Assembly: GCA_021827845.1 (NCBI GenBank)
Contig: JAKAUB010000252.1
Coordinates: forward strand, 1-34,604
Length of the DNA stretch: 34,604 nt
Source: Acidobacteriota bacterium
GTDB lineage: Bacteria; Acidobacteriota; Terriglobia; Terriglobales; Acidobacteriaceae
Direction: 5' to 3'
Below, piece by piece: positions 2,305 to 32,495 of the stretch. Under the pieces are notes generated by a model, which did not search any database, had not been told where the DNA came from, and was given only the letters and a program-made list of their open reading frames with translations. A program made the translations under genes and the position numbers. Positions within the stretch are counted from its first letter, which is position 1. Every line of letters starts with the position of its first letter.

Positions 2305-2477
2305 GTTCTGGCGCGATTCTACCTCCGATGCAGGAGGGCCCGATACGTTGGGTAGGCCGCAGCCTGCTGCGTGGCGTGTCTGTTCTGCCACGGTATGATG
2401 GAGGGTACTGCGCACCGCTGAAGGTTCGCGGCGCCATTGCGAATCCACGCCGCGAACCGGCCGCTCCGGAGAGAACT

Positions 2478-3119
2478 TTGTCAGCCGAACTGTTGCGCGT
2501 GCATCCGGACGAGCCGGAGCCCGAAAAGGTTGAATACGTGGTGCAGTGCCTGCAGCAAGGCAACGTAGTCGGCATGCCGACCGATACGTTTTACGGGCTT
2601 GCGGTCGATCCCGTAAACCTTCGCGCCGTCGATCAGATCTACGTGCTGAAGTCGCGTATGCGGCACAAGCCCCTGTCGCTGCTGCTTGCGGAGGTGGCGC
2701 AAGCCTACGAGATTGCCCGGAACTTGGATGGAAAGTTCGATCGCCTGGCCGAACGCTTCTGGCCCGGTCCGCTGACGATAATTGTCCGCGCTGGCACGCG
2801 GCTGCCGCTGCGCGTTACGGCGAACACCGGAAACGTCGCGCTCCGTGTGCCGGATGCGGCGATTCCGCGTGCCGTGGTCCGCAAGCTGGGTCTGCCAGTG
2901 ACGGCAACCAGCGCCAACATTATGGGCGCGCCGGAATGCACCTACGCCGTGGGCGTGCGCGATCAGCTGGGCGACCGGATTCCGCTGATCGTAGACGGTG
3001 GTCCCACCGCGCGCAGCGCGCCGACGACCATCGTGGATCTTTCGGGCGCTCCGGGAAACTGGCAGGTTCTGCGCGAAGGTGCCATCGCCACGCATGAGAT
3101 CGCACTGGCGCTGCAATAG
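2478..3119 (+). CDS. Threonylcarbamoyl-AMP synthase (Sua5/YciO/YrdC family)
   Basis: GNVVGMPTDTFYGLAVDP, KSRMRHKPLSLLLAE, FWPGPLTIIV, VALRVPD, LPVTATSANIMGAPECT. Likely TTG start at 2478 preceded by GGAGAG; longest ORF begins 2292. Confidence 0.9.
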   Translation: MSAELLRVHPDEPEPEKVEYVVQCLQQGNVVGMPTDTFYGLAVDPVNLRAVDQIYVLKSRMRHKPLSLLLAEVAQAYEIARNLDGKFDRLAERFWPGPLTIIVRAGTRLPLRVTANTGNVALRVPDAAIPRAVVRKLGLPVTATSANIMGAPECTYAVGVRDQLGDRIPLIVDGGPTARSAPTTIVDLSGAPGNWQVLREGAIATHEIALALQ

Positions 3120-3182
3120 GCAGCCTCCCCTCGCATGCCATCGGGATTCGCGGGCGGTCCACGGCTGCTGGAAGGGAACGGC

Positions 3183-3776
3183 ATGGTTCGCTGGAAACTC
3201 GCCATCGTTCTGCTTCTGCTGATCGCCGCAGCCGCTGCGACCGTCTGGTTCTGGACGCTCTTCTGGAAGATCAATCGCGCTTCGGTTGGCCAGCCCCTGC
3301 AGCCGGCTGACGCCATCGCCGTCTTCGGCGCAGCAGAGTATCGCGGACGTCCATCCCCGGTGTTGAATGCTCGCCTGGAGCGGGCGCTCGATCTTTATCA
3401 TCGCGGCTACGCTCCTATCATCATCACGCTGGGGGGCGGAGGGGATCCGCAATACAGCGAGGGCGGCGTAGGGCGCAACTTTCTGCTGGCTCACGGCGTG
3501 CCGGACGATCGCATCATCGCTGAGACGCAGAGCAGCGACACCGAGGAGTCGATTCAGCGGCTCGCAGGCATCGCGCGCGAGAACCATCTGCAGACAATTC
3601 TCGCCGTGAGCGATGGAACCCATCTCTTCCGGATTGCGGCCCTGGCGCGCGCCGCCGGGTTGAACGTCCGCGTGACGCCGCGCGAGACTGGCCATTCAAT
3701 CCCCGGCGGCGACATTCTTCTGCGCTACGCGCACGAGATGGCGAGCTACACCCTCTGGCGCATGCATCTGCACTAG
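3183..3776 (+). CDS. YdcF/SanA-like DUF218 membrane-anchored protein
   Basis: N-terminal TM (KLAIVLLLLIAAAAATVWFW), DAIAVFGAAEYRGRPSPVLNARLERALDLY, IIITLGGGG, AQSSDTEESI-type DUF218 motifs. SD-like GGAAGGG before ATG 3183. Confidence 0.8.
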   Translation: MVRWKLAIVLLLLIAAAAATVWFWTLFWKINRASVGQPLQPADAIAVFGAAEYRGRPSPVLNARLERALDLYHRGYAPIIITLGGGGDPQYSEGGVGRNFLLAHGVPDDRIIAETQSSDTEESIQRLAGIARENHLQTILAVSDGTHLFRIAALARAAGLNVRVTPRETGHSIPGGDILLRYAHEMASYTLWRMHLH

Positions 3777-18858: not shown

Positions 18859-18950
18859 GGAGAGGTGGCAGAGCCCGGTTGAATGCACCTGACTCGAAAT
18901 CAGGCATACCTTTACGGGTATCGGGGGTTCGAATCCCTCCCTCTCCGCCA
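18859..18950 (+). tRNA. tRNA-Ser (anticodon CGA), CCA encoded
   Basis: Acceptor GGAGAGG/CCTCTCC, anticodon stem-loop CCTGA-CTCGAAA-TCAGG, long variable arm ATACC-TTTACG-GGTAT, T-loop GGTTCGAATCC, discriminator G then CCA. Confidence 0.96.
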
Positions 18951-23408: not shown

Positions 23409-23719
23409 CCTCCAGAGCGATCCTCAAAGAGCGGCTTTAATGGGGATCCATGATGGCTCCGGGCACGGCGTGCCGGAACGTTCCCCGTGTCGCTTCGGCG
23501 TACAATGGTCTCGGAAAGCTGCTGCCTTCGACGCCATGTACTGGCTGTTTACTCCCATACTGCTGAAGCGCTGGCGGCGCGGTCGTCCAGACCGCGGCTG
23601 AAGCCTCCGTTTCGCCTCCTGTCAGGTATCGTCGCCGTGCAATCGATGCCGGTATTTCCGTCTACAATCGCGGGTCTTCGCAGCTCTGCCCGCTCATGCC
23701 ATTTGATGAGGAGCCATCG

Positions 23720-26518
23720 ATGAACAGTTTTGGAAGCCGCGCGTCGCTCAAATCCGGCGACCGGACCTATGAAATCTTCCGCCTGCAGGCATTGAACAGC
23801 CGCGGCGTGTCCCTCGAAGCCCTGCCGTACGCCCTCCGTATTCTGCTTGAAAATCTGCTGCGCCATGAAGACGGCAAGAGCGTCACTGCGGAGGATATTG
23901 AGTTTCTGGCTAAGTGGGACGCCAAGGCCGAGCCTTCGCGCGAGATCGCGTACATGCCGGCGCGCGTGCTGATGCAGGACTTTACCGGCGTGCCCGCAGT
24001 GGTCGATCTCGCGTCGATGCGTGACGCCATGCGCGCGCTCGGCGGCGATCCGGAGAAGATCAATCCACTGCAGCCGGCGGAGTTGGTCATCGATCATTCC
24101 GTGCAGGTCGATCAGTACGGCACGCAGGACTCGTACCAAATCAATACGGTGCTCGAGTATCAGCGCAACGTGGAGCGCTACGCGTTTCTCAAGTGGGGAC
24201 AGTCGGCCTTCCGGAACTTCTCCGCCGTCCCTCCCGGCATGGGCATCTGCCATCAGGTGAATCTGGAATATCTGGCGCGCGTTGTGTTCACGACATCCCC
24301 CGACGCGAAGGGCGTGGCGCAGGCGTACCCGGATACGCTGGTCGGAACTGACTCCCACACCACGATGATTAACGGTCTGGGTGTGCTGGGCTGGGGCGTC
24401 GGCGGCATTGAGGCGGAGGCGGCCATGCTGGGCCAGCCAGTCTCCATGCTGGTTCCGCAGGTGGTGGGCTTTAAGCTGCACGGCCGGCTGCGCGAGGGCA
24501 CCACTGCGACCGACCTGGTGCTGACCGTGACCGAGATGCTGCGCAAACACGGCGTCGTCGGCAAGTTTGTGGAGTTTTATGGCGAGGGCATCAGCGAACT
24601 TGCGCTTGCCGACCGCGCCACCATCAGCAACATGGCGCCGGAGTATGGCGCGACCTGCGGCATCTTTCCCGTGGATGCCGAGACGCTGCGCTATCTGCGG
24701 CTCACCGGCCGCAGTGAGGAGCAGATTCGTCTGGTCGAGGCCTATTACAAGGAGCAGGGGCTGTTCCATACGCCCAACGCGCCGGAGGCAAAATATTCCT
24801 CCACATTGTCGCTCGATCTGAGCACCGTGCAGCCCAGCGTCGCCGGCCCCAAGCGTCCGCAGGATCGGGTCGCCTTGCGCGATGTGCCGGGCAGCTTTCA
24901 GCAGCAGCTTCCTGCGCTGAAAGGGCCGGACGGCAACAAGGGCTCCGTGCGGCAGTTGCTGCGCTGGACCGGCGAAGGCGGCCACGCGTCGGGCAACGGC
25001 ATCACCAGCTCCACGGGCGCGCCGGAGCAAGGGCATACGGCGTCGGTAAAAGAGCGGGACGGCGTGGACGTGGATCAGTATCTGGGCGACGGCTCGATCG
25101 TCATCGCCGCCATCACCAGCTGCACCAATACGTCGAACCCATCGGTTATGCTGGCGGCCGGTCTGCTGGCAAAGAAGGCCGTGGAGAAGGGTTTGAGTGT
25201 TCCGCCGTGGGTAAAAACTTCGCTGGCGCCGGGGTCGCGCGTGGTCTCGGATTATTACGACAAGGCCGGTCTCACGAAGTTTCTGAATGCGCTGCGGTTT
25301 AATGTTGTCGGCTACGGCTGCACCACCTGCATAGGCAACTCTGGCCCGCTGCCGCCGGATGTCTCCAAGGCGATCGACGATCATTCGCTGGTCGCCGTCT
25401 CGGTGTTGAGCGGGAACCGCAATTTTGAGGGCCGCATCAACTCCGACGTTCGCGCTAACTATCTGATGTCGCCGCCGCTGGTCGTCGCCTACGCGCTGGC
25501 CGGCAGCATCGATCACAACTTTGACCGCGATCCGCTGGGCAAGGACAAGCAGGGCAATCCCGTCTACCTGCGCGACATCTGGCCGAGCCAGAGCGAGGTG
25601 GAGCAGACGCTCGCCAGCGCTATGGATTCCTCCATGTTCCGCAAGCAGTACGCGACCGTATCCGACGGTGACAGCAACTGGCAGAACCTGAAGTTTCCCG
25701 GCGGAGAGACCTACGGCTGGGAGCAGAACTCCACGTACATCCGTAAAGCGCCGTATTTCGACGGGATGGGAGCAACGCCCGCGCCGGTTGAAGATATTGC
25801 GGATGCGCGCGTGCTGGCGGTGCTGGGCGATAGCGTGACCACGGACCACATTTCGCCTGCGGGCTCCATCAAGCTGAACAGCCCGGCAGGGAAGTACCTG
25901 ACTGAGCATGGCGTAAAGCCCGCGGACTTCAACAGCTACGGCTCGCGGCGCGGCAACCATGAGGTGATGGTGCGCGGCACCTTTGCCAATGTGCGCCTGC
26001 GCAACAAGCTCGCGCCAGGCACCGAGGGTGGCGTGACGCGGCTGCTGCCCGAGGGCGAGACCATGAGCATCTTCGATGCCTCGCTGAAATACGCCGAGCG
26101 GAAGACGCCGCTGATCATCCTGGCCGGTAAAGAGTACGGCTCGGGTTCATCCCGCGATTGGGCGGCCAAGGGACCGCGCCTGCTGGGCGTGCGCGCTGTA
26201 ATTGCCGAAAGTTTTGAGCGGATTCATCGCTCGAACCTCGTTGGGATGGGAATTCTTCCGCTGCAGTTTTCGGCGGGAGAAAATGCCGAGTCCCTCGGGC
26301 TTACCGGCGAGGAGACCTTCGACATCCCCGGCTTGCAGGCCATGCTGGCGGCAAAGTTCGCGAGTGGCCGCACAATCCGCGTGCGCGCGAAAGCTGCGTC
26401 GGGGCAAGTGCGGGAGTTCGACGCAACCGTGCGCATCGACACCCCACAGGAGATCCTCTACTACCAGCACGGCGGCATCCTGCTCTACGTGCTGCGGCAA
26501 CTGGCGGGTAAGGCGTAG
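23720..26518 (+). CDS. acnA: Aconitate hydratase A
   Basis: [141 protein letters not shown]. Confidence 0.97.
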
Positions 26519-26647
26519 CGCACAACAGTAGAATGCTAAGACGAAAGAAGGGGCGGCTGGGAAGTCCTGCTATCCTATAGCCGCTCGGTCGCAGTCGAGG
26601 TGGATTTCGCTGAGACGTGAACTATTCGACCTACGATCTGCTCACTC

Positions 26648-27838
26648 ATGGCCTCAATTAGCTCAGCTCGCAAAACCATAATATTTCTGGCGGTATACGT
26701 CGCGATTGTTCTGCCGTTGTGCTTCCTTGGTTATGGAAGCGACAATGACACATACGGCGTACTTGAGGCAGGAAAATCGACATGGCGCGATGGTCACCTC
26801 GCCACATCGAGAAATCCAGGCTACTGGCTGTATGAAGGAATTGTTTACGCAATAGCACATCTGGGCGGCTATGTGGCAACCAACATTGCCTCGATGTGTG
26901 CTGGGGCCTTTATCCTTTGGCGCTTTCTTTCCCTGTGCCGTAAGCTCCGGATTCCCAATGAATACATCCTGGGTTTTTGCGTACTGTTCGTTCCCACATT
27001 TTTGATCGCAGCCAGCTCGACGATCGACTATTTGTGGTCGCTTGCCTTTCTCGTCGCGACGGCAGAATTACTTCTCGATGACCGGCTTGCATTGGCCAGT
27101 CTTACTGGCGCAATAGCCGTAGGGTTTCGCGCCAGTAATTCGATCATCGTCGCCGGGACGTATGCCGGGCTGCTGATATACGGAATTTACGTCCGCTGGG
27201 GGGGGCGGCGGATCGCGGCGATCCTTGGCTCAGGCTTTGCCGCAGCCGCTCTCGGCGCATTATTTTTCCTACCCTCATGGATAGTGGCGCATGGCACCTT
27301 AGGTTTCTTAACGCCTGGAATTGGGCCAGCAGCGATGTGGACGTTCAAAATGCACGCTGGACGATTCATCTACAAAACAATCTATCTTTTCGGACCGATA
27401 GCGACCATAATCATGCTGTTTCTCCTAGTGCGCAATCGGTTGCACTTGAAGTTTCCTAAGAATTCGGATGTGAGGCGAAGAGGATTCGCGATAGCTCTAG
27501 GTGCATTTTTGGCGAACATTGCACTATTCGCGAAATTTCCGGTCGAAGTCAGCTATCTGCTTCCTGGCATGTTCTTCTTTATGCTGCTGGCAGGACTTAC
27601 ATTTTTGAATGATTCACGCACCTCTGCGCTCTTAGTGCTCGGCGGAATTCTGACGTTCAATCTATTTTCCATTTCGTTTGCTAAACCGAACGTTCCGCTT
27701 CACGCGACCAATGCTACGTTAACGGTGGCACCACAAGCTGGAATTTTGATTGAGGACATACGCATCCGACTCAAGGCAAAATCGTGTGAAACCGTTCCAT
27801 GCTGGGCACAAAAGGTCCAACAGCAGCCGGCTTTGTGA
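26648..27838 (+). CDS. Multi-pass membrane protein, GT-C glycosyltransferase-like (gene X), lower-GC
   Basis: About 8-10 hydrophobic segments; early GSDNDTYGVLEAGKSTWRDGHLATSRNPGYWLYE resembles the first loop of GT-C-type enzymes; AT-richer than its neighbours. Confidence 0.65.
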   Translation: MASISSARKTIIFLAVYVAIVLPLCFLGYGSDNDTYGVLEAGKSTWRDGHLATSRNPGYWLYEGIVYAIAHLGGYVATNIASMCAGAFILWRFLSLCRKLRIPNEYILGFCVLFVPTFLIAASSTIDYLWSLAFLVATAELLLDDRLALASLTGAIAVGFRASNSIIVAGTYAGLLIYGIYVRWGGRRIAAILGSGFAAAALGALFFLPSWIVAHGTLGFLTPGIGPAAMWTFKMHAGRFIYKTIYLFGPIATIIMLFLLVRNRLHLKFPKNSDVRRRGFAIALGAFLANIALFAKFPVEVSYLLPGMFFFMLLAGLTFLNDSRTSALLVLGGILTFNLFSISFAKPNVPLHATNATLTVAPQAGILIEDIRIRLKAKSCETVPCWAQKVQQQPAL

Positions 27839-27855
27839 AGGCTGCGGCGTGGTAT

Positions 27856-28075
27856 GTTGCCTAAACCCCGACGCCGTACTCGACGGGGCCACCGTTGTCG
27901 CCCGCGTGAGAATAAAAATCGTACGGGGTGCTGTGCTTGAAGCGGTAGCGGTCACGCAGGTTGCGGCCCACAAAAAAGCCCAGCGCCAGCGCGCCAGTGG
28001 CCACCGATCCCCAGCCCAGGATTTGAACCCAGGGAATGTCAGAGAGCTCGGGAAGCTTTTTCTGGATGGCTCGCA
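27856..28075. repeat. Direct repeat copy A (about 220 bp), 5'-truncated copy of the small membrane-protein gene
   Basis: Aligns to 29537-29756 with constant offset 1681; nine substitutions counted by eye; similarity ends at gctcgca. Confidence 0.93.
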
Positions 28076-28082
28076 AGTACAC
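27861..28082 (-). CDS. Partial duplicate of small membrane protein (73 aa from a GTG start)
   Basis: MYLRAIQKKLPELSDIPWVQILGWGSVATGALALGFFVGRNLRDRYRFKHSTPYDFYSHAGDNGGPVEYGVGV; last 71 aa identical to 29542-29814. May be a pseudogene or a functional short form. Confidence 0.55.
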   Translation of the reverse strand: MYLRAIQKKLPELSDIPWVQILGWGSVATGALALGFFVGRNLRDRYRFKHSTPYDFYSHAGDNGGPVEYGVGV

Positions 28083-28173
28083 CTGAGCTCTTCAAACGCG
28101 ACCATAGTGAGGAGTCCGAGATCCTGAAGGAACAGCGCTGCGTCGCTAACTATACGGACAACCCTGCCGGCGT

Positions 28174-28204
28174 TTGGCATTAATGCGTTGCAAAACGGTA
28201 TAAT
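28174..28204 (+). promoter_or_regulatory. Candidate sigma70-type promoter for the acyltransferase gene
   Basis: TTGGCA (28174-28179), 19-bp spacer, perfect TATAAT (28199-28204), within the segment between the two direct repeats. Confidence 0.4.
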
Positions 28205-28242
28205 CGGGCACACAATAAAGCCCGCGCCCCCCGTCGCGCCAT

Positions 28243-29463
28243 TTGTTGCCCTCGCCGTACTCTATGGTCGACTTCAGGCAGTCCTTTAAAAAAGCGCATG
28301 AAAAAGGGATCACCCCGGCGGTCTCAGCCCATTTGGACGCAATCCGCGGGCTAGCCGCGATCGCTGTTCTACTTATGCACGCTCGTCACCTACTGCTGAG
28401 GGATTGGGCGGATCTTCACCATCACAACCTCGGTCTCGAGTTCGTTTACGGTATCACTGAGTTTGGCCATCAAGCCGTAATCGTTTTTTTTATATTGAGC
28501 GGATTTTTCATCGGTCCGGGAGTCTTGCGCGACATCCATACTGGACGCTGGTCTTTCACTGCATATTTTGTCAAGAGGTTCATCCGTCTTGAGATTGTTC
28601 TGCTACCAGCGTTGTTGCTTTGCTTATTTTGGGATTTAAGCGGGTCTCACATTTTCGGTTTGAAATCGATTTATGGCGGGCATGCAGATTTTTATCCGGT
28701 GGCGTACAACATACAGGCATGCATTTCGGCGCCGATCTTTTTTGGCAATTTGGCATTCCTGCAAATGATCAAGGTACCTCCGCTAGGAAGTGACAGCCCA
28801 CTATGGAGCTTAGCGAACGAGTTCTGGTACTACCTCCTGTTTCCATGCACCGCGCTGGCATTACTATCCAGAAAAAAACTTGCCGTGCGTTCCACGTACG
28901 GGGGTGCCGGAGTTCTAATCGTATGGCTTGTGCGGAAATCAATCTTGATTTATTTTCCTATCTGGCTAATTGGTGTCTTATCCTATTACCTCCCGAAAAC
29001 GAAACACCCTAAGAGCATCAAGCGCGCTTTTTTAATAGCTTCCTCCGTTCTATTTTGTCTTGATTTGCTTTCCACCAAGCAATACTGGAGCAACTCCATC
29101 GCCTCCGATTATGTTCTCTCCGGCTGTTTTGCGTTATTCCTTTATTCCCTATTGAATCGAACGACGACGATTGGCGAGCGTTATAGTCGGCTGTCTCACG
29201 GTCTAGCATCCTCCTCGTATACCCTCTACGTCGTGCACCTTCCCTTGCTAGTTTTTCTCGAGGTCTGGATCGGAAAGCGCTGGGTGCCCACGCCATTGCA
29301 TTTGGTATTGACTCTGGGAATCGTGTATACAGACTGGCTCTACGCCCGCGGGATATATCGCCTTTTTGAGGCGCGAACGCCCACAGTCCGGCAGTGGACC
29401 GAAAAAAAGCTCAAAGGTCTATATGCCAAAATGGGTCGAAAGGAGAGGCAGGGGGTACTGTAA
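28243..29463 (+). CDS. Acyltransferase family 3 (OafA/YrhL-like) membrane protein (gene Y), lower-GC; true start may be 28264
   Basis: AHLDAIRGLAAIAVLLMHARHL...FGHQAVIVFFILSGFFIGPGVL...SLANEFWYYLLFP...SSYTLYVVHLPLLVFLE. Confidence 0.9.
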   Translation: MLPSPYSMVDFRQSFKKAHEKGITPAVSAHLDAIRGLAAIAVLLMHARHLLLRDWADLHHHNLGLEFVYGITEFGHQAVIVFFILSGFFIGPGVLRDIHTGRWSFTAYFVKRFIRLEIVLLPALLLCLFWDLSGSHIFGLKSIYGGHADFYPVAYNIQACISAPIFFGNLAFLQMIKVPPLGSDSPLWSLANEFWYYLLFPCTALALLSRKKLAVRSTYGGAGVLIVWLVRKSILIYFPIWLIGVLSYYLPKTKHPKSIKRAFLIASSVLFCLDLLSTKQYWSNSIASDYVLSGCFALFLYSLLNRTTTIGERYSRLSHGLASSSYTLYVVHLPLLVFLEVWIGKRWVPTPLHLVLTLGIVYTDWLYARGIYRLFEARTPTVRQWTEKKLKGLYAKMGRKERQGVL

Positions 29464-29536
29464 CGCCCAGTCCGTCCAAGCTTGAATCGCACCCGCGGAC
29501 CTGTGGCGAAGTCTACGTGGCAATGGGCAGAAGACG

Positions 29537-29756
29537 GTTGCCTAGACCCCGACGCCGTACTCGACGGGACCACCGTTGTCCCCCGCGTGAGAATAAAAAT
29601 CGTACGGGGTGCTGTGCTTGAAGCGGTAGCGGTCGCGCAGATTGCGGCCCACAAAAAATCCCAGCGCCAGCGCGCCGGTGGCCACCGATCCCCAGCCCAG
29701 GATTTGAACCCAGGGGATGTCGGAGAGCTCGGGAAGCTTTTTCTGGATGGCTCGCA
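29537..29756. repeat. Direct repeat copy B (about 220 bp), 3' part of the full-length small membrane-protein gene
   Basis: See copy A at 27856-28075. Confidence 0.93.
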
Positions 29757-29814
29757 GTTCTTTCCGGGGTTCTGAAGTGCTTCGTGTGATGAAGCGCATG
29801 CTGAGGCTTCTCAT
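29542..29814 (-). CDS. Small single-TM membrane protein (90 aa), full-length copy
   Basis: MRSLSMRFITRSTSEPRKELRAIQKKLPELSDIPWVQILGWGSVATGALALGFFVGRNLRDRYRFKHSTPYDFYSHAGDNGGPVEYGVGV; coding status supported by synonymous-only divergence from copy A. Confidence 0.75.
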   Translation of the reverse strand: MRSLSMRFITRSTSEPRKELRAIQKKLPELSDIPWVQILGWGSVATGALALGFFVGRNLRDRYRFKHSTPYDFYSHAGDNGGPVEYGVGV

Positions 29815-29907
29815 GGCCGAATCTTACCGCAAATCGGCCCGGCTTCGCCAAATTTCCATGAACGTTTCATCCCGGAATAATAATCGACGGTCCGTCCCGC
29901 AAATCTT

Positions 29908-30975
29908 CTACCGGGCGCGATCTTCAAGGTCGGGATACTGCTCGATTTGGCGCAGCAGTTGCAGCTTGCGTGCCGGCGGCAGCAGGCTGGCTTCTACGGA
30001 ATTGCCCGCAAGCTCCCGCAAATGTTCGGCCGTAAAACCGAAGACGCGGCTCGCCAGTAGATACTCCTCCGCAAGGTCGCTGCCAAACAGCGCGGGGTCG
30101 TCGGAGTTCAGCGTCACCATCAGGCCGCGGTCAAAATAATTGCGGACGGGGTGGTCCTCCACTTTCACACAGCAACCGGTGCGAACGTTGCTGGTGATGC
30201 AGATTTCCAGCGGAATCTGCTTCTGTGCCAGCACTTCGAGCAGATCTTCATCTTGCGCCGCGCTCAGCGCATGTCCCAGCCGTTCCGCGCCGATGTTAAT
30301 CGCTGACCAGATGCCCTCCGGCCCGACTGTTTCGCCGGCATGTGCCGTCAGGTGCAGGCCAGCCTGCCGCGCCTCAGCGTACAGATCCCGAAATGGCTCG
30401 GCCCCGGTGCGCCGCTCATCGCCGCCGATGCCGATTCCAGCGATCGACGGATGCTCGGCCTGCATCTCCGCCGCCTTGCGAAAGACGCGCGCTGCTTCTT
30501 CGGCGCCAAAGTGCCGTACCGCGTCGAATATCCAAAGTACCGAGACGCCGAAGTCCCGCTCGCCACGCACCCGGCCCCGCTCCATACCGGCAAAAAGCGG
30601 CTCGAAGGCAACGCGCTTCCAGTAATAGACCACACCGACGGAGACGTAGACTTCCGCGTGCGCCACCCCCGCGGCTCGGAGGCCGCGCATCATTGCGTAG
30701 GTAATCTCCTCGTAGTCCTCGGGCGTGCGCAGCCGCTCCGTAATCGCTTTGAACGCGAGGAGAAAGCCGGTGAAGTCGGTGTAGTGATACAGCGACTGCG
30801 CGGCCTCTAGGGAAAGCGGCTCCGCGTCGCTCCGGCGGCTCAGGCTTACCAGCGTCTCCGGTGTGACGGTGCCTTCCAGATGAAGGTGCAGCTCCGCCTT
30901 GGGCAGCCCGCGCACCCATTGCGCCAACGCTGCGTCATCGGTTGCCTGCGACGGGGAGTGCGGACGCGCGTGCAT
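29908..30975 (-). CDS. add: Adenosine deaminase family protein
   Basis: LPKAELHLHLEGTVTPETL, LTAHAGETVGPEGIWSAINIGAERLGHALSA, EICITSNVRTGCCV, VTLNSDDPALFGSDLAEEY. Start at MHARPHS; overlaps the permease stop (TGATG). Confidence 0.9.
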   Translation of the reverse strand: MHARPHSPSQATDDAALAQWVRGLPKAELHLHLEGTVTPETLVSLSRRSDAEPLSLEAAQSLYHYTDFTGFLLAFKAITERLRTPEDYEEITYAMMRGLRAAGVAHAEVYVSVGVVYYWKRVAFEPLFAGMERGRVRGERDFGVSVLWIFDAVRHFGAEEAARVFRKAAEMQAEHPSIAGIGIGGDERRTGAEPFRDLYAEARQAGLHLTAHAGETVGPEGIWSAINIGAERLGHALSAAQDEDLLEVLAQKQIPLEICITSNVRTGCCVKVEDHPVRNYFDRGLMVTLNSDDPALFGSDLAEEYLLASRVFGFTAEHLRELAGNSVEASLLPPARKLQLLRQIEQYPDLEDRAR

Positions 30976-32495
30976 CACGCCCGCTTCCGTGCGGAGGCAG
31001 CAAACTCGCTGTGGTGCCGGCTGTACAGGAAGTAGACCAGCAGGCCGAGCCCGAGCCAGACAAAAAAGCTGAGCCACGTCAAAATGGGCAGCCCAACCAT
31101 CAGTAATCCACAGAAGAAGACGCTCAGCAGCGGAATAATCGCGCCGCCCGGACAGCGAAACGCGCGATGCCGGTTGGGATCCTTATAGCGCAGAATGATC
31201 ACGCCCGCCGATACCAGCACAAACGCGAACAGGGTGCCGATGTTCGAGAGATTGGCGAACGTGCCGATGTCGAGCAGGCCCGCAGGAACCCCAACGAAGA
31301 CTCCAGCAATCCACGTGGCGGCCGCCGGCGTGCGAAAACGCGGATGAACGCGGCTGAACAGCGCCGGCAGCAGACCGTCGCGCGACATGGCAAACCACAC
31401 CCGCGCCTGGCCGATCTGAAATACGAGAATGGACGAGATCATCCCCAGCAGCGCGCCAAAGATCACAACCAGCTCCACCCAGTGCAGGCTGTTGCTATGG
31501 TTGTGCAGATACAGCCGCCGCAGCGTGTTCACGACGGGGGCAGCGTCATCGGTCAGCAGCTTCCAGTGCACCAGGCCGGTCAGCACCAGCGCGACGGCAA
31601 CGTACAGGAGGGTGGCGACGATCAGCGTGGCAATAATTCCGATGGGAACATCGCGCTGCGGGTGCCGGCACTCCTCGGCCGCCGTCGAGACCGAGTCAAA
31701 CCCGATATAGGTGAAAAAGATGATCGATCCGCCGGTCAGAACGCCGGGCCAGCCATTCGGATAAAACGGGTGCCAGTTGCTGGTGTGAATAAACTGTGCG
31801 CCAAAGGCGACGAACAAAAGCACCGCGCCGATCTTGAGCAGCACCATCACGTTGTTGGTTTCGGCCGACTCCCGGATGCCACGCACCAGCACCACCGTGA
31901 TGAGCATGACGATTAGAAATGCCGGGACGTTGAAGCCAAAGTGCCATCCAGGCAGGTAGAGCGTCGCGCCACTCAGGCTCTGCAGGCCGCTGGGCAGGTA
32001 GGCCGGCGTAATCCATCGCAGCGCGGGATGAATGCCAAACCAGTCGAGCAGCGCCACCGTATGCGCCGCGAACCCGACGCTCACGGCCATGTTTGAAAAC
32101 GCGTACTCCAGGATCAAATCCCAGCCGATGATCCACGCGATCAGCTCGCCCATGATCACGTACGTGTACGTATAAGCGCTGCCCGCAATAGGGATCATGG
32201 AGGCGAGCTCCGCGTAGCAGAGGCCGGTGAACCCACAGACGATGGCGACGAGGAACAGTGAGACGGCAAGCGCTGGCCCCGCGCCGGGACGGCCGGCCAT
32301 GGCACTGTGGCGCACTAGAAAGTCGAGAACCGGCGTATCCAGCAGGGAAGCGCCGGAGCCGCTCTCGCCCGCAATGGCGGTGCCGATGACGGTGAATATG
32401 CCGGATCCAATGACAGCGCCGATGCCGAGAGCCGTGAGAGAAACCGGCCCCAGCGTCTTTTTCAGGCGCGTCTCGGGGTTCTCCGAATCCTGCAC
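30975..32495 (-). CDS. APC-family amino-acid permease (cationic amino-acid transporter-like)
   Basis: LKKTLGPVSLTALGIGAVIGSGIFTVIGTAIA, GLCYAELASMIPIAGSAYTYTYVIMGELIAWIIGWDLILEY, FFTYIGFDSVSTAAEECRHPQRDVPIGI. Confidence 0.93.
   Translation of the reverse strand: MQDSENPETRLKKTLGPVSLTALGIGAVIGSGIFTVIGTAIAGESGSGASLLDTPVLDFLVRHSAMAGRPGAGPALAVSLFLVAIVCGFTGLCYAELASMIPIAGSAYTYTYVIMGELIAWIIGWDLILEYAFSNMAVSVGFAAHTVALLDWFGIHPALRWITPAYLPSGLQSLSGATLYLPGWHFGFNVPAFLIVMLITVVLVRGIRESAETNNVMVLLKIGAVLLFVAFGAQFIHTSNWHPFYPNGWPGVLTGGSIIFFTYIGFDSVSTAAEECRHPQRDVPIGIIATLIVATLLYVAVALVLTGLVHWKLLTDDAAPVVNTLRRLYLHNHSNSLHWVELVVIFGALLGMISSILVFQIGQARVWFAMSRDGLLPALFSRVHPRFRTPAAATWIAGVFVGVPAGLLDIGTFANLSNIGTLFAFVLVSAGVIILRYKDPNRHRAFRCPGGAIIPLLSVFFCGLLMVGLPILTWLSFFVWLGLGLLVYFLYSRHHSEFAASARKRA

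Follow-up and report, generated by a model that had tools for sequence, protein, structure and literature searches.

A gene-swapping slot between acnA and a small membrane-protein gene in Acidobacteriaceae, and the probable merger of two of its alleles

Between the aconitase gene acnA and a conserved gene for a 90-aa single-helix membrane protein, here named p90, some Acidobacteriaceae appear to hold a slot for single membrane genes, which would be gained, lost and swapped there without any mobile-element enzyme. In the stretch of DNA analysed here (hereafter the window, 34,604 nucleotides of contig JAKAUB010000252.1), this slot holds two such cargo genes, X and Y, with a truncated copy of p90 (copy A) between them and an intact p90 (containing copy B) behind them. 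We read this X-A-Y-B arrangement as the probable merger of two alleles with alternative cargo, completed by one illegitimate joint at 28075/28076; as such it would be the visible scar of an exchange.

The window comes from a draft assembly (G000) in 258 contigs that is 82% complete, and its species is represented by this one genome. It was compared with the one other available genome of its genus (G001) and with ten genomes of a sister genus (g79). Gene and Pfam annotation bore out the gene order given by a first-pass annotation made from the sequence alone, which from 5' to 3' runs acnA(+), X(+), copy A, Y(+), copy B within intact p90(-) and add(-):

23696 to 26518, plus strand: acnA (aconitase), the conserved left flank, at whose stop codon sister-species homology stops exactly; the orthologue matches Pfam Aconitase.
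26648 to 27838, plus strand: gene X, the first cargo, a polytopic membrane protein of 396 aa; a 68% identical gene lies straight after acnA in G196 and a truncated remnant lies in G138 (both g79).
27856 to 28075, minus strand: copy A, a p90 allele reduced to its 3' part (codons 19-90), a repeat in X-p90 junction context whose left flank matches G138.
28075 to 28076, no strand: the novel, putatively illegitimate joint between the end of copy A and unique DNA upstream of Y, where A and B diverge abruptly.
28243 to 29463, plus strand: gene Y, the second cargo, an acyltransferase-3 of 406 aa (Pfam PF01757, E 5e-24) with closest homologues at about 40-44%.
29492 to 29545, plus strand: remnant of a second acyltransferase type (GAT3), its final 17 codons and stop (PADLWRSLRGNGQKTVA*), which align to the 3' end of the G001 acyltransferase gene (411 aa; PADLWRSLRGNGQKTIG*).
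29537 to 29756, minus strand: copy B, the repeat stretch inside intact p90, in direct repeat with copy A.
29542 to 29814, minus strand: p90, intact, 90 aa, the right conserved flank; 96% in G001, with homologues in many Acidobacteriaceae.
29908 to 31077, minus strand: add (adenosine deaminase), co-oriented with p90 and lying upstream of it (Pfam A_deaminase, E 4e-77).

The GC content of X is 0.51 and that of Y 0.49, against 0.60-0.64 in neighbouring genes. As first noted by eye, neither integrase nor transposase is present in the window's acnA-p90 interval, which contains cargo genes only and no tRNA, the sole tRNA of the window lying at 18859. A search of Rfam over 26400-30000 gave no match, promoters found in a sigma-70 scan were at chance level, and terminator-like matches fell inside genes.

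Copies A and B constitute a family of direct repeats (D1) with two members of 220 nt at 27856-28075 and 29537-29756, spaced by 1681 and 96% identical, with a longest exact run of 53 bp. These are the coordinates and offset first reported for the repeat, which is indeed the 3' end of the 90-aa gene. The remaining direct repeats of the surrounding 9 kb are chance-type matches of 21-30 nt; a stretch of 15 nt at 28253-28267, which resembles the p90 3' end (87%) and spans a possible ATG of Y, is likewise at chance level. A search of the whole assembly for extra copies, as had been suggested, found p90 only as A and B within the 82% that is complete. Truncation at the 5' end sets A apart from B, which keeps the full 5' end, just as the first reading held: A lacks the first 18 codons and retains, in an open 73-aa frame from a GTG (27861-28082), the whole conserved core of p90, a small single-helix protein found throughout Acidobacteriaceae and frequently adjoined by add.

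The clearest evidence for a merger lies in the DNA beside each copy. In a two-by-two test, the 150 bp that adjoin the p90 stop on its left, in A and in B, were set against the corresponding flanks in G138 and G001. The flank of copy A matches G138 at its X-p90 junction (z 8.5, against 0.0 for G001), whereas that of copy B, which is the 54-bp GAT3 remnant, matches G001 at its acyltransferase-p90 junction (z 10.3, against -0.1 for G138). Because the z-scores pair A with G138 and B with G001, each junction in the window occurs alone in a relative, and on this comparison the X-p90 and acyltransferase-p90 junctions are pre-existing ones that have been brought together in the window. No full GAT3 was found in G000 at E 1e-40. 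On its other side, copy A ends in something new: similarity between A and B stops abruptly at 28075/28076, where the unmatched DNA upstream of Y begins, and a search with the segment 28060-28270 found nothing similar in the rest of G000, in G001 or in the ten sister-genus genomes.

Comparison of the acnA-to-add interval among relatives, proposed when the repeat was first noted, uncovered both empty sites and other cargo, in support of the suggestion that this is a plug-in site: each relative carries one of several unrelated cargo genes (two kinds of acyltransferase-3 among them), a remnant of one, or nothing. G001 (contig JAJXUS010000079.1, 'BP5.bin109') is collinear with the window as far as the acnA stop codon, and collinearity resumes at window position 29492. 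Between these points it has p90 once and one different acyltransferase-3 (GAT3, 411 aa), which aligns with Y over part of its length at 24% identity. Within g79, GAT3 is intact at the slot in G227, frameshifted and matched in two frames in G087, reduced to a 3' remnant in G225 and present as a 5' part, linked via overlapping contig ends, in G180. G162 carries a 383-aa PMT_2-like GT-C protein, G196 an X gene and G138 a 5'-truncated X (92% identical between these two), while G226 and G210 have no gene between acnA and p90. A cargo gene or remnant thus occupies the slot in nine of the eleven resolved g1/g79 genomes, with G223 outside the resolved set. Relatives uniformly carrying X-A-Y-B and no other cargo would, on the first reading's own terms, have pointed to one old duplication; the arrangement occurs in no relative examined, and several have different cargo or an empty slot, which favours the insertion site. 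Seven genomes of more distant genera have convergent acnA and p90 genes 70-94 bp apart, and in others from such genera the gap is somewhat larger, with no obvious gene. Since these genera are mostly empty between acnA and p90, the empty site is probably ancestral, and the g1/g79 clade would have gained and swapped its cargo.

Several features of these sites deserve record in their own right. The 5'-only acyltransferase of G180 (L182:242-907) is followed by unrelated genes (hydrogenase-maturation-protease-like and ROK-like by eye), and p90 was not found in the G180 genome. A palindromic element, 'ATTCTGA...GAAGAATCC', stands upstream of the slot acyltransferase in G227 (L146:389-490), with similar sequence in G180, and may be an intergenic repeat found in these genomes. 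The acnA-p90 interval of Acidobacteriaceae ZG23-2 and of Silvibacterium bohemicum (L056:10275-10926 and L063:10257-10890) holds a PIN/MazE-type toxin-antitoxin pair with a terminator-like hairpin on each side.

The flanking genes bear marks of exchange as well. The acnA of G227 is G180-like to about alignment column 1850 and G162-like thereafter (chi2 102; 0/2000 permutations). Between G138 and G196, acnA identity is 92.4% across the first 2350 columns and 76.4% across the last ~480 (0/2000 permutations), so that the 3' end of the gene was replaced in one or both, being only 76% identical there against ~92% in the rest of the gene and in X. This mosaicism in the relatives (G227, G162 and the G138/G196 pair) marks recombination beside the slot; the window's own acnA has no mosaic break against that of G001. 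In the part of the right flank at p90, the two genomes with an empty slot are about 68% identical to those with GAT3 or X, which are at least 79% identical among themselves. G162 also has a second acnA, a broken C-terminal fragment with internal stops, on another contig (L160:3207-3716). A further possibility, which we hold only tentatively, is that the slot has long served as an allelic switch point, where X and GAT3 alleles, present in two genera and similarly diverged, are kept as alternatives while the flanks reshuffle them; were this so, the agent keeping both might be, for example, selection by phages or grazers on surface glycans.

How A and B have diverged bears on whether they were ever one gene copied in place. 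All nine coding differences between them are synonymous and at third positions, and in polarity they comprise four changes in A only, four in B only and one three-way difference. Had copy A been dead, the probability that its four to five changes would all be synonymous is 0.001-0.008. Synonymous differences number nine between A and B and 12 between either copy and G001, and because the first figure is the lower, A and B would have split after divergence from G001. As all nine differences are synonymous and evenly split, the simplest interpretation of the copies is that two strains each contributed an allele of a single intact gene and that these were joined recently, not that an old duplicate is decaying. 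The alternative to this two-allele reading is that copy A is a still-functional short gene, and it is the core of the strongest rival explanation, in which the p90 3' end was duplicated locally as Y inserted in a single lineage and A has since been kept as a second functional short gene. The open 73-aa frame, the whole conserved core and the purely synonymous changes all fit such a history, which we nevertheless consider unlikely: it leaves unexplained why A has an X-p90 flank and B a GAT3-p90 flank, A has no normal 5' end or start context, and the A-B divergence of nine nears the between-species value of 12. Capture by duplication, offered as an alternative in the first-pass annotation, is thus disfavoured on two counts, the restriction of the divergence to synonymous changes and the difference in junction context between the copies.

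The merger that we favour would have run as follows. Routine swapping at the slot would proceed by homologous recombination in both conserved flanking genes. On this occasion the recipient would have been an acnA-X-p90 chromosome (allele A) and the donor, presumably in that direction of transfer, a strain with Y, the GAT3 3' remnant, p90 and add (allele B). Incoming DNA, perhaps taken up in linear form, would have recombined homologously at one end, in p90/add, and at the other would have been joined illegitimately, codon 19 of p90-A meeting the DNA upstream of Y; this order of events is the one we consider plausible. What resulted would be X and Y separated by a p90-A that lacks its 5' end, with p90-B intact behind Y. 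One homologous side (p90-B/add) with one non-homologous joint is the pattern of homology-facilitated illegitimate recombination.

The same final order would arise if a small circle of 1681 bp, carrying Y, the GAT3 remnant and the 3' part of p90, had integrated by a single crossover in p90, with A keeping the X-p90 flank and B the full 5' end. We think this improbable. The 1.7 kb contains no replication or recombinase genes, an extra excision step would be needed that itself makes the very same illegitimate joint, and other occupied sites have no shared repeats; X has no match among plasmids, and the matches of Y to plasmids and phages are distant acyltransferases (23-35%), so no mobile donor was found for either. 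The circular molecule first invoked for this locus is therefore unnecessary, there being no sign of a circular element and two pre-existing junctions being joined. Just as improbable is that the assembly fused two coexisting strains into a chimera, for instance through a misjoin inside p90. The 258 contigs of the genome and the frequency with which relatives' contigs end at the acnA-p90 site invite that suspicion, but the longest exact A/B run is 53 bp, the novel joints at 28075/28076 and 29464-29491 have no repeat able to mislead an assembler, and a misjoin within A would still leave both junction types real. A cassette-like array, also raised at first, is rejected, as the repeat is p90 coding sequence and not a recombination site, no shared edge repeat occurs at other occupied sites (L013, L146, L147, L141) and the interval has no integrase; a transposon or IS insertion was likewise set aside, with no inverted repeat pair at the edges of the window's cargo and a 220-bp repeat far exceeding a target duplication.

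Y is a member of the Acyl_transf_3 family (85.3 bits against a cut-off of 31) with an alternative in-frame ATG at 28264; a 44% identical paralogue lies on another G000 contig (L049:363-1577), near a second acyltransferase-like gene (2449-3573). The description of X as 'GT-C-like' reflects only hydropathy and a weak motif. X has no match in Pfam, NCBIfam or PDB, its profile matched PDB by chance only, and its single-sequence structure model (pLDDT 50) was too poor for a fold search. By BLAST it has no detectable homology to the PMT_2-like protein, with which it shares a weak common stretch around 'RD..PGYWLY' (hhalign probability 16%). Modification of cell-surface or lipid-linked glycans is a common role of both acyltransferase-3 and PMT_2-like proteins. 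Judging by family, the cargo consists mostly of membrane proteins of glycan-modifying type, in keeping with the early suggestion of surface-variation genes, and probably alters surface sugars.

The locus offers a compact, dissectable case of single surface-type genes swapping without mobile elements, with parental junctions known from relatives, and it marks a position in Acidobacteriaceae genomes at which to search for strain-specific surface genes. Like the arrays of integron gene cassettes it has genes followed by a repeated sequence, but the repeat here is p90 coding sequence, full only once, an integrase is absent, and the other occupied sites lack any attC-like repeat. Hotspots of gene turnover without mobile elements are known to work through homologous recombination in their flanks (PMC5635113); the slot shares with them conserved flanks, changing content, the absence of integrase and transposase, and recombination in a flanking core gene, and differs in taking mostly single genes (about 1.2 kb) and in being seen across two genera. 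We regard as the closest described parallel to the window the effector-immunity arrays of the Vibrio cholerae T6SS, for which homology-facilitated illegitimate recombination has been proposed (PMC5361080; also PMC3240628). There too a new module sits beside a displaced older one, orphan fragments are left, and the copies come from different strains and not from duplication; here, unlike there, the cargo consists of surface-type membrane genes and the fragment derives from a conserved flanking gene and not from an immunity gene. The kind of event is thus already known, and the X-A-Y-B instance of it is new and unusually clear.
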